NCBI GenBank assembly: GCA_021815835.1
Contig: JAKAZN010000011.1
Coordinates: 1-12,524 of the forward strand
Direction: 5' to 3'
From: Pseudomonadota bacterium
Lineage (GTDB): Bacteria > Pseudomonadota > Alphaproteobacteria > Acetobacterales > Acetobacteraceae
Length of the DNA: 12,524 nt
In this document: positions 5,586 through 12,134 of the stretch, one piece after another
Layout: every line of letters starts with the position of its first letter
How positions within the stretch are numbered: position 1 is the stretch's first letter
Made by a program: the position numbers and the translations under genes
Notes under the pieces: model-generated
The model's database searches: none
Seen by the model: the letters and a program-made list of their open reading frames with translations, nothing else
What the model was told of the DNA's origin: nothing

Positions 5586-6670
5586 CGGATTTTCAACGTC
5601 GCCAGGCCCACCAGGGCCAGGATCATGGAGATGATCCAGAACCGGATCACGATGGTGGCCTCCGCCCAGCCCTTCTTCTCGAAATGATGATGCAGCGGCG
5701 CCATCAGGAACACGCGCGTGCCGGTGCGCTTGAACCAGAACACCTGGATGATGACGGAGACCGTCTCCACCACGAACAGCCCGCCGACGATCGCCAGCAC
5801 GAACTCGTTCTTGGTCACCACCGCGACCGCGCCCAGCGCGCCGCCGAGCGCGAGCGAGCCGGTATCGCCCATGAACACCGCCGCCGGCGGGGCGTTGAAC
5901 CACAGGAACCCAAGCCCGGCGCCGATCAGGGCCGAGCAGAACACGGTGAGCTCGCCCGCCCCCGGCACCGGATGCAGTTGCAGGTAGTCGGCGAAGACGT
6001 GGTTGCCGACCAGATAGGCGATCAGCGCGAACACGCCGGCGGCGATGATGGAGGGCACGATCGCCAGCCCATCGAGCCCGTCCGTCAGGTTCACCGCGTT
6101 CGAACTGCCCATCATCACCAGCGCGCCGAAGGCCGGGAACCCCCAGCCGAGCGGGACCAGCAGGTTCTTGAACACCGGCAGCGCCACCGCGTCGCCCAGA
6201 TTGCCGTCGGTGGTGTGCATGATCCAGGCGGCGGCGGCCAGCCCGATCACCGCCTGGCCCAGCAGCTTCAGCCGTCCCGCGAGACCCTTATGGCTGCGGC
6301 GGGTGAGCTTCAGCCAATCGTCGGCGAAGCCGAGCAGTCCGTAGCCGAACGTCACCCCCATCACCGCCCAGACATAGCGGTTGCGCAGATCGACCCAGAG
6401 CACCGTCGATCCCAGGGTGGCGAGCAGGATGAGCACGCCTCCCATGGTCGGCGTGCCGGCCTTTTCGATCAGATGCCGCTCGGGTCCGTCGGCGCGGATC
6501 GGCTGGCCCTGGCGCTGGGTGCGCCGCAGCCAGCGGATCAGGCCGGGGCCGATCAGGAAGCTGAACACCAGCGCGGTGAGGCAGGCGGCGCCGGAGCGGA
6601 ACGTGATGTAGTGCAGCACGTTGAACGCGGAGACGTCGCGCGCCAGGGGATGGGCGAGGGCAAACAGCAT
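5582..6670 (-). CDS. mraY: Phospho-N-acetylmuramoyl-pentapeptide-transferase MraY
   Basis: The 362-aa integral membrane enzyme has the standard MraY length. It transfers phospho-MurNAc-pentapeptide from UDP to undecaprenyl phosphate, making lipid I on the inner leaflet. Signatures are [10 protein letters not shown] (16-25), AGTPTMGG (71-78), the acidic FADDWLK (115-121), the [10 protein letters not shown] block (194-203), [19 protein letters not shown] (259-277, with catalytic-site Asp269) and [14 protein letters not shown] (324-337). About ten hydrophobic segments are apparent. The start is ATG 6670, which shares its A with the murF stop (TGATG) and follows GGAGGG by about 6 nt. The longer open frame to 6868 is antisense-like arginine-rich sequence and was not used. 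The stop overlaps murD by ATGA. Confidence 0.98.
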
Positions 6671-8040
6671 CAGCCGCCCTCCGCCAGCCGCGCGAGCGCG
6701 GCGACGACGATATTCATGCGGCTGCCGAGACTGCCTTTCACCAAAATGGCATCGCCCGGCCGGACGGCCTGCGCGAGCAGCGGCGCCAGCGCCGCGGAAT
6801 CGGGCGCATAGGCTATCGTAGCCGGATTTGGCAGGGCGTCGCGCAGATGGCGCATCTGCGTCCCGCACAGGAATACGCGATCGGCGGCGTCCGTAACCGC
6901 CTCGGCGAGCGCCGCGTGCTCGGCGGCGGCGTGGGCGCCGAGCTCCAGCATGTCGCCCAGCACGGCGATCCGCCGCCCGGGCTGGGCGGCGAGCACGGCG
7001 AGGGCCGCGTGCATCGAGGCGCCGTTGGCGTTGTAGCTTTCGTCGAGCAGGAGCGCGCGCCCGCCGGGGACCGCGATGTCCCGCCGCGCGCCGCGCCCGG
7101 CGAGAGGGGCGAAGCCGTCGAGCGCGGCGGCAGCCTGGCCGGGGGGAATGCCGAGCGCCGCCGCGGCGGCCAGTGCCGCGAGCGCGTTCAGCGCCATGTG
7201 CCGGCCGGGAGCAGCGAGGCGGATGGTCACGGTTACGCCGGGGCAGGTGGCGCGGAGCGTGGTGGCTTCGGCCGTGACCTCGGCCGCGTCCAGGCGGAAA
7301 TCGGCGTCGGAGGCCGCGCCGAAGCTGACGATGCGGGCGTAGGCTTGCCGCGCGGCGTCGCGCAGGCGGGGGAACTGGTCGCTGTCGGCGGGCAGGATCG
7401 CGGCGCCGCCCGGCTCCAGCCCGCGCAGGATGGCGGCCTTTTCGTCGGCGATCGCCTCAATGGAGCCGAGATGGCCGATATGGGCTGGCGCGATCGCGGT
7501 GACGATTGCGACATGCGGGCGGGCGAGACGGGCGAGTGGTTCGATCTCGCCCGCGTGGTTCATGCCGAGCTCAGCCACGCAGAACGCCGCGTCGGCCGGC
7601 AGGCGGGCGAGCGTGAGCGGCACGCCCCACTGGTTGTTGTGCGAGGCGCTCGCGGCATGGGTGAGGCCGACGGCGGCGAGGATGGTGCGCAGCATCTCCT
7701 TCGTGGTGGTCTTGCCGACGCTGCCGGTGATCGCGGCGAGCTTGCCGGTGAAGCGGGCGCGCCCGGCGCGGCCGAGCGCGGTAAGGCCCGCCAGCGTGTC
7801 TTCCACCAGCAGCAAAGGCAGATCGGGCGCGCCGTGTTGTGCGAGCGCGCCGGCGGCACCGGCTTGCAGCGCGGCTGGGATGAAGGCGTGGCCATCGCGG
7901 TGTTCGCCTTGGAGGGCCACGAACATCTCGCCCGGGATCAGGCCGCGCGTGTCGATGGCGATGCCGGTCGCGGCGAAGGGGCGGGTGAAGCGTCCGCCGG
8001 TCGCTTCTTGCAGGGCGGTCGCGGTCCAGAGCGCGCTCAT
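6670..8040 (-). CDS. murF: UDP-N-acetylmuramoyl-tripeptide--D-alanyl-D-alanine ligase MurF
   Basis: The 456-aa product is MurF, which adds D-Ala-D-Ala to UDP-MurNAc-tripeptide in the cytoplasm. Motifs are [14 protein letters not shown] (30-43), the P-loop [13 protein letters not shown] (105-117), [10 protein letters not shown] (135-144), [10 protein letters not shown] (157-166), [12 protein letters not shown] (332-343), [10 protein letters not shown] (359-368) and [11 protein letters not shown] (432-442). The start is taken at ATG 8040 because the conserved MurF N-terminus ([16 protein letters not shown]) begins there. No Shine-Dalgarno precedes it (the upstream 15 nt are CGCGCGTGGCCGCCG), unlike its neighbours. 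Unlike every other junction here, murF is separated from the gene before it, by about 445 bp of repeat-bearing DNA. Its ATG overlaps the stop of a 150-codon open frame running from the murE end. The 3' end joins mraY as TGATG. Confidence 0.97.
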
Positions 8041-8489
8041 CGGCGGCCACGCGCGCGCGACGCGGCCGCTTGTCGCCTGCCGTGAGCGCGCCTCGCTCCG
8101 AGCGAGGGCGGTGGACGGGATTGGCGGCGCGCGCGCCCGGATGCGGGTCCCGGGTGGTCGGCGCGCTGTTCTTTTTTTAACACGGAGAAGAAAGGCGAGG
8201 GCCACGGAGGGCACGGAGGGTTGGGTGCGCGCTCCACCCTGGTACGCCACGGGAGACCGGCGTTGGCGGCAACCGCCCGGGGACATACCGGGCTGGAGCG
8301 CGCACCCAACCCTCCGTGCCCTCCGTGGCCCTCGCCTTTCTTCTCCGTGTGAAACAAAAAAATCCGCCCACGTCCGAGGCCTTGCGTGAGGATCCGCAGA
8401 CGGCCGATCTCGTTCTTAGCCGTAACGAACCGATTCGGTAATATGGCGCGCGTCGCTCGCCGCCTCCGCCAGGTGCCCATCGCGCTCAT
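8037..8489 (-). CDS. Hypothetical 150-codon open frame linking murE to murF
   Basis: This frame starts at an ATG that overlaps the murE stop as ATGA, behind GGAGG with a 6-nt spacer, and ends at a TGA that overlaps the murF ATG, again as ATGA. The predicted product is very rich in Arg, Pro and Gly. Its middle (residues about 43-106) is just the palindrome read through, giving GEGHGGHGG and later NPPCPPWPSPFF. I recognise no domain, signal peptide or membrane segment, and it is unlikely to be a conserved protein. It could be translated simply because it inherited the ancestral murF start signals, passing ribosomes on to murF. In GC-rich DNA an open frame of this length can also arise by chance. 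Confidence 0.3.
   Translation of the reverse strand: MSAMGTWRRRRATRAILPNRFVTAKNEIGRLRILTQGLGRGRIFLFHTEKKGEGHGGHGGLGARSSPVCPRAVAANAGLPWRTRVERAPNPPCPPWPSPFFSVLKKEQRADHPGPASGRARRQSRPPPSLGARRAHGRRQAAASRARGRR
8087..8108. repeat. Short GC hairpin upstream of murF
   Basis: CGCCTCGCT (8087-8095) and AGCGAGGGCG (8099-8108) pair over 9 bp with one bulged G and a 3-nt loop. It lies 47 bp before the murF start, on the murF side of the large palindrome. There is no U-run after it in either direction, so it is not a terminator. It may be fortuitous in such GC-rich DNA. Confidence 0.4.
8172..8362. repeat. Long palindromic repeat with perfect 57-bp arms
   Basis: The arms at 8180-8236 and 8294-8350 are perfect reverse complements over 57 bp. 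They surround a 57-nt centre (8237-8293) whose first bases on each side still pair partly. Outside the arms, T7 (8172-8178) faces A7 (8356-8362), extending the stem across a small asymmetric internal loop. Each arm has three CACGGAG copies, two of them a 9-bp tandem CACGGAGGG (8203-8220). The T tract is 5' and the A tract 3' on either strand, so it is not an intrinsic terminator. The style resembles the CACGGAGGGCACGGAG-type repeats that turn up as spurious TEGTEG or HGGHGG peptides in many genomes (recalled). Transcribed within the operon, it should fold into a very stable stem between murE and murF. Confidence 0.92.
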
Positions 8490-9967
8490 GCGCCGCCTCC
8501 GGCGAGACGGCGGATCACGGCGGCGTCGTCGAACGGGATCGTGACAGTGCCGACGATCTGGCCCGGCTCGTGGCCCTTGCCGGCGACGACCAGCACGTCG
8601 CCGGGGCGCAGCGCGTTCAGCCCGGCGGCGATGGCGGCCTCGCGGTCGCCGATCTCGATCGCGCCGGCGCAGGCGGCGAGGATGGCGGCACGGATCGCGG
8701 CCGGGTCCTCGGTGCGCGGATTATCGTCGGTGACAAAGACGAGGTCGGCGCCGCGCGCGGCCTCGGCGCCCATCAGCGGGCGCTTGCCGCGGTCGCGATC
8801 GCCGCCGGCGCCGAAGACGAGGACCAGGCGGCCCGCGGTGTGCGGGCGCAGCGCGGCGAGCAGGCGGGCGAGCGCGTCCGGGGTGTGGGCGTAATCGACG
8901 TAGGCGCACGCGCCTCCGGGGGAGGCGGCCAGTTCGAGCCGGCCGCGGACACCGGTCAGGCCGGGCAGACGGGAAAGCGCGTCTGGCTCGCCCAGCGCCT
9001 CGGCCAGTGCCGCGGCGAGCAGCGCGTTGTCGGCCTGAAAGCGCCCGGGCAGCGGAAAGGCGACGGTCCGACGCACGCCGTCGGGGCGGGCGAGGATCAG
9101 GTCCTGGCCGTCCGGGCGCGGATGGGCGGCGATCACGCGCAGCGTGTCGCCTGCCTCGCCGACGGTGCGGAGATCGAGGCGGCGGGCGATGGCGATGGCG
9201 CGGAGCGCGGCGAGGGTGTCGGGGTCAAGCTCGGCGGTGGCGATCGCGGGGGCGCCGGGGGGCAGCAGGGTGTCGAACAGGCGCAGCTTGGCGGCGCGGT
9301 AGGCTTCGAGGCTGCCGTGATAGTCCAGGTGGTCGCGGGTGAGATTGGTGAAGCCGGCGGCGGCCAGGCGGACGCCGTCGAGACGGCATTGATCGAGGCC
9401 GTGCGAGGAGGCCTCCATCGCGGCGTGGTCGATGCCGTCGCGGGCGAGGGCGGCAAGGGTTTCGGCCAGCGCGACGGGGTCGGGGGTGGTGAGGGAGGCG
9501 GGGGGGGCGACCCCGCGGCTCCCACCGTCATGGCCGGGCCCGACCTCCACGCCGAGCGTGCCGAGGCTCGCCGCGCGATAGCCCGACGCGGCCCAGATCT
9601 GGCGCAGGAACGCGACCGTGCTGGTCTTGCCGTTGGTCCCGGTCACCGCCGCGATTGTGCCCGGTTGCGGCCCGGCGAACCGCGCGGCGAGCAGCGCCAG
9701 GTGGCGACGCGGGGCGGGGTCGGCGATCAGCTTGCGCGCGGGCACGCCTTCGGGCCAGACGGTGCCGGGGGCGGCGAGGACCGCGGCGGCGCCGCGCGCC
9801 ACCGCCTCGGCGATGAAAGCCCGACCGTCGGTGGCCGCGCCGGCGAGCGCCACGAACAGGAACCCGGGGGCCACGCGTCGGCTATCGGCGGTGATGCCCG
9901 CGAGCTCGAGCCCCGCCAGGGATTTGGGCGCGTCGGCCAGCCCGGCGATCAGTTCAGCGCCGCGCAA
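8486..9967 (-). CDS. murE: UDP-N-acetylmuramoyl-L-alanyl-D-glutamate--2,6-diaminopimelate ligase MurE
   Basis: The 493-aa product is MurE, adding the third stem-peptide residue in the cytoplasm. Motifs are GITADSRRVAPGFLFVAL (24-41), the P-loop TGTNGKTST (109-117), TTPDP (160-164), MEASSHGLDQ (184-193), NLTRDHLDYHG (208-218), the AAK lysine (K227, expected carbamylated), YVDYAHTPDAL (356-366), GAGGDRDRGKRP (386-397), DNPR (415-418) and AGKGHEPGQ (462-470). DNPR is the known mark of meso-diaminopimelate specificity, as expected for a Gram-negative. The only start fitting the family N-terminus is TTG 9967, with GGAGG 6 nt upstream; it overlaps the ftsI end by 14 nt. The stretch between GTLG (136-139) and TTPDP looks some 8 residues longer than usual and includes a G8 run on the plus strand (9500-9507), but the frame is intact. 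Confidence 0.96.
   Translation of the reverse strand: MRGAELIAGLADAPKSLAGLELAGITADSRRVAPGFLFVALAGAATDGRAFIAEAVARGAAAVLAAPGTVWPEGVPARKLIADPAPRRHLALLAARFAGPQPGTIAAVTGTNGKTSTVAFLRQIWAASGYRAASLGTLGVEVGPGHDGGSRGVAPPASLTTPDPVALAETLAALARDGIDHAAMEASSHGLDQCRLDGVRLAAAGFTNLTRDHLDYHGSLEAYRAAKLRLFDTLLPPGAPAIATAELDPDTLAALRAIAIARRLDLRTVGEAGDTLRVIAAHPRPDGQDLILARPDGVRRTVAFPLPGRFQADNALLAAALAEALGEPDALSRLPGLTGVRGRLELAASPGGACAYVDYAHTPDALARLLAALRPHTAGRLVLVFGAGGDRDRGKRPLMGAEAARGADLVFVTDDNPRTEDPAAIRAAILAACAGAIEIGDREAAIAAGLNALRPGDVLVVAGKGHEPGQIVGTVTIPFDDAAVIRRLAGGGA
8496..8500 (-). promoter_or_regulatory. Shine-Dalgarno GGAGG ahead of the ATGA at the murE end
   Basis: GGAGG lies within the last murE codons, 6 nt before the ATG at 8489. 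It is a well-placed ribosome-binding site, of the type that serves other genes in the cluster. Today it faces the 150-codon linking frame, not murF, and probably marks where murF originally started. Confidence 0.6.
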
Positions 9968-12134
9968 GCTGGGCCTCCATGGACGGGTGGCCGCCAGGCT
10001 GGGGGCCGGCCGGGTCGGCCGTCGGGGCGCGCCCGGCCAGGGTGCGGCCAGGCGGGCGCGGGGGCGGCAGCGGCAGGATCGGCAGCGGCGACGGCACGTC
10101 GGACGGCGTTCCGGGTGGCATCGCCACCGGAATCCCGTATTTCCAGCTCCGGTCGCCCGGAATGCCACCGGGGACCCGATCGAGCGGCGGCGCGCCCGGG
10201 GGGATAGGGGGCGCAAGCGGCAGATCGAGCGCCTGCTGCAACGCCGGCAGCGCCTCCGGCGCCGCCGGCAGCAATCCCAGCATCGGCGCGATCCGCGCGA
10301 TCGTGCGCCGGATCACCGGCCCCGCGATCGCGCCCCCGGTAGAGAATCCGTAGGTGCTCTTGTTGCCCTTCGGGCTGTCCAGCATCGCGTAGATGATATA
10401 TTTCGGTTCCGTCATGGGAAACGCGGCGATCATCGACGCCAGGTTGCTGTGCAACCGGTAGCCGCCGCGCGCGATCTTCTGCGAGGTCCCGGTCTTCGCC
10501 CCCATCAGATAGCCCGGCACCCGCGCCTGCTTGCCGGTGCCGAACAGCAGGACGTCGCGCATCAGCTTGCGCATGGTGAGCGAGACGGAGGCGCGGATCA
10601 CCCGCCGCCCCGGCGGCACCGTGCCCGCCGGCAGCGCGAGCAGGGTGGGCTTGTGGTACACTCCGCCGTCGATCAGCGCGGCGGTGCCAGTCAGCAGCTG
10701 GATCGGCGTCACCGCGATGCCGTTACCGAACGAAACCGTCATCACGGAGGCCTCGCCCCAGGCGCGCTTCGGCTGCACCAGGGGCGGTGCCGATTCCGGC
10801 AACTGGATCGGCGCGGCGGCGAACATGCCGTTGGCGCGCAGAAAGGCCCGTTGGCGCGCGCGCCCGACCAGCAGCGCGATATGCGAGGCGCCGATATTGG
10901 ATGATTGCGCGATGATCTCGGGCAGCGCGTAGTCGTAATGCGCCTGCTCGAAATCGGTGATGGTGAAGCGGCCGATATGGATCGGATGGACGGTGTCGAA
11001 GCGGTCCCAGACATGGATCACGCCGTCGTTGAGCGCCATCGCCGCGGTTTGCAGCTTGAAGGTGCTGCCCGGCTCATAGACGCCGGAGGCGGCGCGGTTG
11101 AAACGGCCGTCGGGCGGCGCGGTCGCCAGATCGTTGGCATCGTAATCGGGCAGGCTGACCATCGCGAGCACTTCCCCGGTATCGACCTTCATCACGATGC
11201 CGGTGGCGCCGATCGCCTGGAACTCGTCCATCGCGCGGGCCAGTTCGTCGCGCAGCACCGCCTGGACGCGCACGTCGAGCGACAGGCGCAGCGGCGCGGG
11301 ATCGGCGAGCAGGCGCTGGTCGAGCGATTTCTCCACCCCGGCGATACCGTGGTCATCGACATTCACCCCGCCCAGCACCTGCGCGGCGAGCCGGCCCATC
11401 GGGTAGCGGCGGATCTCGGTCGGCAGGAAATCGACCCCGGGGATGCCGAGGGCGTTGATCGCCTCCTCCTGCTCGGGCGTGATGCGGAACGCCAGATAGA
11501 CGAACTGCTTGTCGCTTTGGCCGAGCCGGCGCGTCGCCATCGCCAGGTCGAGATCGGGCAGCACCGCCTTGAGCTGGGCGGCGACCTTGGCCGGATCGAT
11601 GATCTGGCGCGGATCGGCATAGAGCGCGGCGGCGGGCAGCGAGATCGCCAGGATCTGGTCGTGACGATCGACGATCATCGCCCGGCGCACGAGCGGGGCG
11701 TCGGCGAGCTGGTCCGGATGGTCGAACAGCCGTGCCAGCGGATGGCGGGGCGGCGGCGGGCGGTTCGGATCGAGCACGGTGGCGAGCGAGAGCTTCACCA
11801 GCACCGCGAAGAACAGGCCGAGGAAGCCGAGCGCGGTCAGCGCCAGGCGGCGATGGGCGCGTTCCTGCAGGGCGCGCCGGCGGAGATCGGGGGCGGTGAC
11901 GCGCACCGTCTCCATCCGCGGGGTGGCGTCGGTCCGGGTGGCGCCCTGGCGGGTGCGCGGCACCGGGCGGGGGGCGGACCGAGCCGGGGAATGCGGTCCC
12001 CCGTGCGGGGGCGGACCGGGCGGAGCGGGCGTATCCCAGGAGAACCCGTCATCGTCCCGCGCGGGGGGGACCTGCCAGGCGGGGTCGTGCGCGCCCGACG
12101 AGGGGGGCGGTGGAATCGGCGGTGGGCGAGGCAT
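9954..12134 (-). CDS. ftsI: Septal peptidoglycan transpeptidase FtsI (PBP3) with proline-rich extensions
   Basis: The 726-aa product is a class B penicillin-binding protein that cross-links septal peptidoglycan in the periplasm, paired with FtsW. It has a Pro-rich cytoplasmic N-terminus (1-75), a basic stretch, one TM anchor (about 98-119) and a dimerisation domain (about 145-270, with RRYPMGRLAAQVLGG). The transpeptidase domain carries STFK (357-360, Ser357 nucleophile), SSN (411-413) and KTGT (547-550). The last 85 or so residues (about 640-726) are again Pro-rich. FtsI proteins are commonly about 570-650 aa, so both ends are extensions. ATG 12134 has GGAGG 12 nt upstream. A shorter version could start at ATG 11915 (METVRVTAPDLRRRA), close to where the family's conserved part begins, but no Shine-Dalgarno is seen there. 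The 3' end overlaps murE by 14 nt. Confidence 0.95.
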   Translation of the reverse strand: MPRPPPIPPPPSSGAHDPAWQVPPARDDDGFSWDTPAPPGPPPHGGPHSPARSAPRPVPRTRQGATRTDATPRMETVRVTAPDLRRRALQERAHRRLALTALGFLGLFFAVLVKLSLATVLDPNRPPPPRHPLARLFDHPDQLADAPLVRRAMIVDRHDQILAISLPAAALYADPRQIIDPAKVAAQLKAVLPDLDLAMATRRLGQSDKQFVYLAFRITPEQEEAINALGIPGVDFLPTEIRRYPMGRLAAQVLGGVNVDDHGIAGVEKSLDQRLLADPAPLRLSLDVRVQAVLRDELARAMDEFQAIGATGIVMKVDTGEVLAMVSLPDYDANDLATAPPDGRFNRAASGVYEPGSTFKLQTAAMALNDGVIHVWDRFDTVHPIHIGRFTITDFEQAHYDYALPEIIAQSSNIGASHIALLVGRARQRAFLRANGMFAAAPIQLPESAPPLVQPKRAWGEASVMTVSFGNGIAVTPIQLLTGTAALIDGGVYHKPTLLALPAGTVPPGRRVIRASVSLTMRKLMRDVLLFGTGKQARVPGYLMGAKTGTSQKIARGGYRLHSNLASMIAAFPMTEPKYIIYAMLDSPKGNKSTYGFSTGGAIAGPVIRRTIARIAPMLGLLPAAPEALPALQQALDLPLAPPIPPGAPPLDRVPGGIPGDRSWKYGIPVAMPPGTPSDVPSPLPILPLPPPRPPGRTLAGRAPTADPAGPQPGGHPSMEAQLARR
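9974..9978 (-). promoter_or_regulatory. Shine-Dalgarno that decides the TTG start of murE
   Basis: GGAGG, read as part of the ftsI codons for Met-Glu-Ala near its C-terminus, lies 6 nt before the TTG at 9967. No ATG or GTG in the murE frame fits the conserved N-terminus, so this site supports a UUG start embedded in the ftsI end. Confidence 0.75.

Follow-up and report, generated by a model that had tools for sequence, protein, structure and literature searches.

The DNA analysed here, which we refer to throughout as the window (12,524 nucleotides of contig JAKAZN010000011.1 from the Acetobacteraceae assembly GCA_021815835.1), carries a mur/fts cell-division cluster on its minus strand. Within this cluster, murE (8486..10216, minus strand; the open frame as listed, with a provisional start) is followed by murF (6670..8040, minus strand), the frame of which is intact at 456 amino acids, and the murE stop at 8486 is separated from the murF start at 8040 by 445 bp.

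A split gene junction and its empty site

Both edges of the murE/murF gap are marked by the 9-bp direct repeat ATGAGCGCG, the two copies of which lie 440 bp apart. The murE-side copy (8481..8489, minus strand) contains the murE stop TGA (8486-8488) together with a spare ATG, while the murF-side copy (8032..8040, minus strand) contains the murF start codon (8038-8040). A ribosome-binding-site-like GGAGG (8496..8500, minus strand) precedes the murE-side copy, and today stands ahead of a 150-codon frame rather than of murF; there is no GGAGG in the GC-rich stretch ahead of the murF-side copy. In these respects, the repeat at both edges, the GGAGG at the murE side only and the gap of about 445 bp, the sequence is as the initial annotation of the locus had described it. 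The same annotation had every other junction in the window overlapping, which holds for the four junctions that we computed (overlaps of 1 or 4 bp at murF/mraY, mraY/murD, murD/ftsW and ftsW/murG) and for murG/murC as read from the sequence, where GTGA is common to both genes (an automated projection from a CCG codon gives an 8-bp gap); ftsI/murE and murC/murB fall outside that set. When 200,000 random pairs of window positions were compared, 11 shared an identical 9-mer, and among the 33 minus-strand ATGA sites of the window the next five bases were the same in 2 of 528 pairs, the ATGAGCGCG pair included.

To compare this arrangement with that in relatives, as the initial annotation had proposed, we searched for murF in 40 genomes, the window's own included, and obtained a match in 39. 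The junction sample consists of 30 loci among the matches listed, namely the window's own and 29 relatives, with murE present in all. As projected from alignments, murE and murF overlap in 26 of the 29 relatives (by 4 bp in 25 and by 8 bp in one), and in the remaining three the two genes are separated by 8, 20 and 91 bp, so that an unrelated spacer shared by all relatives, the finding that would have counted against an insertion, is not what is seen. The longest of these gaps, in the family relative G019 (L015 about 1409-1500), contains a small CTCCCCCTCCC/GGGAGGGGGAG palindrome interrupted by NN. An ATGA overlap is present in each of the four congeners represented at the junction (L010, L011, L012 and L026); in a fifth congener, G002, the murF search gave no match. 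ATGAGCGCG is still found at the murE/murF junction of five of the 29 relatives (L010, L016, L021, L027 and L030), and in L010, from the same genus, the junction reads ATGAGCGCGCTCTGGACC with no insert. Since most relatives have the overlap, the ancestral state was most simply an overlap as well, and the window therefore carries an insertion. There is thus good support for an insertion that entered the murE/murF junction and duplicated 9 bp, and the ATGAGCGCG repeat is likely to be the duplicated target.

The insert is free of stop codons in only one of its six frames, and this frame (orf150, 8037..8489, minus strand, 150 codons) opens with the ATGA that contains the murE stop and closes with the TGA contained in the murF-start ATGA, giving the order murE-ATGA-orf150-ATGA-murF. 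An open insert arises in 11.5% of shuffled inserts and in 34.5% of own-genome stretches, which, multiplied by one third for length, gives a chance of about 4-12%; the frame is therefore no demonstration of selection. Because it joins two ATGA junctions, however, translational coupling from murE through orf150 to murF may survive the insertion, with the chain of ATGA junctions presumably being translated.

Iterated arms in the insert and around GxxExxY genes

The insert (8041..8480, 440 bp) has at its core a hairpin (8169..8361) with two arms of 85 nt (8169-8253 and 8277-8361) that are 89% complementary, are separated by 23 nt and consist of iterated CACGGAG units directed inward. GxxExxY proteins often adjoin CACGGAG-type repeats, and we tested this lead. 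A 20-base piece of the arm was found in seven stretches of named genomes from Verrucomicrobia, Planctomycetota, Phycisphaerales/Phycisphaeraceae, Chromatiales, Rhodospirillales and Limobrevibacterium gyesilva, the last of these a member of the Acetobacteraceae; the exact 27-base arm pattern gave no match in genome contigs. Inverted repeats of at least 25 nt lie near the 20-base piece in two of the seven stretches (in L119, from L. gyesilva, a repeat of 73 nt containing the same motif; in L118, one of 30 nt containing a different motif), and none of that length was reported near the other five. PF13366, the Pfam model of the GxxExxY family (TIGR04256), was found in six of the seven genomes picked by the arm motif alone, as well as in 19 of the 289 class genomes and 23 of the 200 family genomes. 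In the family sample the genome richest in PF13366 matches is again G019 (15, fragments among them), and in the Planctomycetota genome G491 there are nine (L154, L160, L164, L168, L170, L172, L174, L175 and L176), with arm scores, as defined below, of at least 40 at four matches, 36-37 at three and no arms at two, and with iterated units that differ between them.

For the arm test, we took the 180 bp on either side of each PF13366 match and aligned the preceding segment with the following one, the latter reverse-complemented, at a threshold score of 40. In the combined class and motif-chosen sets, 21 of 49 scored loci reached at least 40, and at none of the 49 did any shifted control do so (50 of the 53 loci were used, L149, L152 and L153 being second pieces of genes already counted, and L169 was not scorable). 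Among the family loci the threshold was reached at 19 of 29, and by a control in 2 of 29 (this set comprises 30 loci among the matches listed, L184 not being scorable). Inverted arms were thus found at 40 of the 78 scored GxxExxY loci, the other 38 falling below the threshold, or at 39 of 77 distinct loci once L158 and L190 are counted as the one gene that they are. The arms are made of iterated units of 7-9 bp that vary from gene to gene, including CACGGAG, CACAGAG, CACGAAG and CGCAGATG among others; the CGCAGATG type frames the GxxExxY gene of the congener G002 (L194). About half of the scored genes are therefore framed by the same kind of arms as those in the window, and, read in the sense orientation, the window arm itself matches the flanks of six of the 29 family loci, with scores of 26-39 against at most 24 in 837 control windows. 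No sense-direction flank at the other 23 loci resembled the window arm above the controls, and L202 scored 25 in the antisense direction.

Two further comparisons point to an association between gene and arms, both of them uncorrected for kinship. A pattern of paired CACGGAG motifs co-occurs with PF13366 (9 of 14 genomes with the pattern versus 14 of 186 without it; Fisher p 1e-6, kinship uncorrected), the five pattern-bearing genomes that lack PF13366 including the window's own, where a search of the 62% complete assembly gave no matches. Protein similarity and arm similarity are correlated, with a Spearman coefficient of 0.46 over 38 loci and none of 2000 permutations as high, again uncorrected for kinship. 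These 38 were drawn from 46 loci with an arm score of at least 36, leaving out L132, L185 and L194 (internal stop), L147, L150 and L197 (partial gene), L190 (the duplicate of L158) and L173.

All four GxxExxY proteins tested matched both PF13366 and TIGR04256 above the cut-off. In an alignment of 32 rows, D62 and K74 are present in at least 90% and E72 in all, so that both the family match and the D...ExK residues agree with membership of the PD-(D/E)XK superfamily; for one member, L158, there was no sequence relative among solved structures. A search of plasmids for GxxExxY returned 8 records. A literature search, with most subscription journals outside its reach, found no account linking GxxExxY genes to inverted arms in the text available to it, which for the GxxExxY family included PMC8934634.

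Three genomes (G087, G129 and G149) contain a gene-bearing unit and, in addition, gene-less hairpins with mostly genome-specific arms. In this comparison, from which five G054 stretches were left out (the gene-bearing L252 has no CACRGAG) and to which G149 contributed two gene-less stretches, 23 of 24 gene-less arms were nearer to the gene-bearing arms of their own genome than to those of the other two. The window hairpin shares with all of these units its inverted, CACGGAG-like iterated arms pointing inward, and differs from the gene-bearing units in having 23 nt and no GxxExxY gene between them. Because G087, G129 and G149 each contain both gene-bearing and gene-less units, we assign the window hairpin to the gene-less form only. 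Its kinship with the arms around GxxExxY genes is, as judged from sequence similarity, well supported, and the reading that suits the core of the insert best is a hairpin of the kind that frames these genes, without the gene.

Extent and carrier of the putative mobile unit

The window's own genome is a draft of 2.83 Mb in 575 contigs, and contains stretches related to the insert on contigs C44, C59, C149 and C10. A genome search with 8041-8480, which the initial annotation had suggested as a way to learn whether the whole 440 bp or only the palindrome is repeated, favours the former in one case: the diverged copy on C149 (L006 about 1410-1853) is collinear with insert bases 2-431 of 440, and is the one near full-length relative, C44, C59 and C10 being partial matches. 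On the left (8041..8161), bases 2-121 of 121 align with the C149 left flank, and on the right (8369..8480), positions 3-103 of 112 align with its right flank. The right-flank match, with a score of 54, was equalled by none of 500 shuffles and none of 500 real own-genome segments (best real score 52); the left-flank match is weaker, being equalled in 5 of 500 shuffles and by 17 of the 500 real segments. At C44 there is only a faint likeness to the left flank, equalled by 65 of 500 real segments, and none to the right flank. The collinear flanks at C149 support a single unit of about 440 bp, on the basis of one good second copy. Elsewhere, a search of the genus with 8340-8480 yielded, besides the sequence itself, only matches of 18-43 bp, with C149 unlisted; the whole insert found matches in 30 of 200 family genomes, only short ones outside its own genome; and a 27-base arm piece, allowing at most three mismatches, was present in 1 of 40 genomes, namely its own. 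A 7-bp repeat at C149 was considered as a target duplication and dismissed as chance, since 682 of 2000 random trials did equally well.

The initial annotation had seen neither terminal inverted repeats nor a transposase, and the same holds here for the insert ends and the window's frames: ungapped comparison of the insert ends at 15, 20, 30 and 40 bp was equalled or bettered by 48-57% of random pairs, local end-to-end scores were matched by 26%, 45%, 8% and 1.25% of random pairs, and inspection of the frames by eye revealed no transposase. Of its proposal of transposition with a 9-bp target duplication, the insertion and the empty site hold; transposition as such stays conjectural, given these absent hallmarks and the unconvincing duplication at C149.

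These observations bear on a narrower explanation, in which mobility is confined to the roughly 200-bp hairpin, the 120 and 112 bp outside it grew as spacer in some other way, and the 9-bp repeat is a coincidence made likelier because murF must have a start codon. The gene-less hairpins of G087, G129 and G149 have no common outer flanks by eye, positions 8041 and 8480 lack terminal inverted repeats, and an ATG is required at the murF start in any case, all of which suit it. We nevertheless consider it unlikely, because the flanks are collinear with C149 (on the left weakly), because nothing but an overlap is found at this junction in the four congeners, and because agreement in the five bases beyond ATGA is as rare as the 2 in 528 pairs given above.

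A different carrier is seen in the congener G003, where a repeat of roughly 500 bp with ends like GCTCGACTTTCCGC encloses a hairpin of the window type. Three of its copies (L077, L084 and L087) are directly flanked by CTCAG, CTTAG and CTGAG, that is, by CTNAG direct repeats. Window-type hairpins inside this different repeat indicate that the hairpin type occurs in more than one carrier. One G003-type end also lies near the one-armed copy of the window hairpin on C44 (L003 about 360-650), which is situated upstream of a frame resembling, by eye, an acyl-CoA dehydrogenase gene. On these grounds an element of IS type, similar to the G003 family, could have given rise to the insert and carried it by means of its transposase; however, the insert is bounded by a 9-bp repeat and lacks GCTCGACTTTCCGC-type ends, no alignment was obtained between its flanks and those of L077, and the left end of L079 in G003 itself does not fit CTNAG, which makes such a derivation improbable. 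The expectation in the initial annotation that a repeat family should end where the insert ends is accordingly borne out in part, by C149 reaching bases 2-431, but not by the G003 family, with its other ends and other direct repeats. Two G003 copies contain extra DNA at inner points (about 600 bp in L084 and about 1300 bp in L087), in the frame lists of which, the part inspected, no transposase was recognised by eye; the extra DNA of L084 (about 1767-2361) has a second iterated motif of the CGCAGATG type, at a place also covered by L041.

The stretch 8041-8489 folds with a z of -14.7 relative to 100 shuffles, and so stable a fold within an essential operon might suggest a selected regulatory element for murF, such as an attenuator or RNA hairpin. 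We regard this as very improbable, since 8000-8520 contains no promoter or terminator pattern and the spacer is missing from the 29 relatives read. Rfam returned 13 matches, mostly to microRNA precursors and none at gathering score, which we take to be the effect of any long GC-rich hairpin and which offers that explanation no help. Finally, an assembly artefact might be feared in so fragmented and incomplete a draft, and is hardly credible where gene order and both genes are continuous, both repeat edges are exact and related sequence occurs elsewhere in the same genome.

A model for the insertion and its significance

The account that we favour, and hold to be probable as a whole, is that a non-autonomous element of about 440 bp, with a gene-less hairpin of the GxxExxY type as its core, was inserted with a 9-bp duplication. 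A staggered cut in the ancestral murE/murF ATGA overlap would have been followed by insertion of the element, with its CACGGAG hairpin and its lack of terminal inverted repeats, and by duplication of the 9 bp ATGAGCGCG, the whole 440 bp presumably arriving in one step. The open frame across the insert would have rebuilt two consecutive ATGA junctions. Since the duplicated stretch holds the shared stop and start, murE and murF were left undamaged. The hairpin core would be one of many sets of inverted iterated arms, which in related bacteria often have a GxxExxY gene between them.

Among known systems, the insert is like bacterial MITEs (see also PMC10969869) in part. MITEs are short and dispersed, contain no functional gene and have a direct repeat at the empty site, as the insert does (9 bp, with four of four congeners empty); unlike them, it has no terminal inverted repeats, its inverted repeat is internal, and no parent IS was recognised in the sequences inspected. 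The hairpin group also recalls the REPIN/RAYT (TnpA-REP) systems, in which genome-specific, gene-less palindromes share a genome with a unit bearing a nuclease-type gene. Here, in contrast to the HUH tyrosine enzyme of REPIN/RAYT, the associated gene encodes a PD-(D/E)XK protein, and the arms are iterated 7-9-bp units extending over about 20-100 bp as aligned (on REP/REPIN systems, see also PMC3116915 and PMC8266576). The selfish intervening sequences of 23S rRNA are similar in size, at 428 nt in one case (PMC4990558), and may hold a small gene; unlike these, the window insert lies between murE and murF rather than in rRNA. A search for PF05635 gave no match in 200 family genomes and is uninformative, because it was equally silent in every control genome.

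We know of no established role for the GxxExxY nuclease-like family, and we hypothesise, as a hypothesis only, that its protein might act on or move such hairpins. A broader scheme, which we put forward as possible though doubtful, is that GxxExxY proteins and iterated-arm hairpins could be the two parts of a mobile system that has so far escaped recognition and extends across bacterial phyla, and in which the protein would recognise and spread both gene-bearing units and gene-less hairpins, with arms specific to each genome. The insert in the window would then be a gene-less unit of this system that had entered a gene overlap, with the duplication preserving both genes and their coupling.

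What is new here is the framing of GxxExxY genes by inverted iterated arms, the presence of gene-less hairpins beside gene-bearing units, and the single open frame that links murE and murF through the insert. The locus offers a natural example of an insertion that splits two overlapping essential genes and harms neither, the duplicated bases being the overlap itself. By tying dispersed CACGGAG-type hairpins to a nuclease-like family, it also provides a concrete and testable proposal for the role of both.
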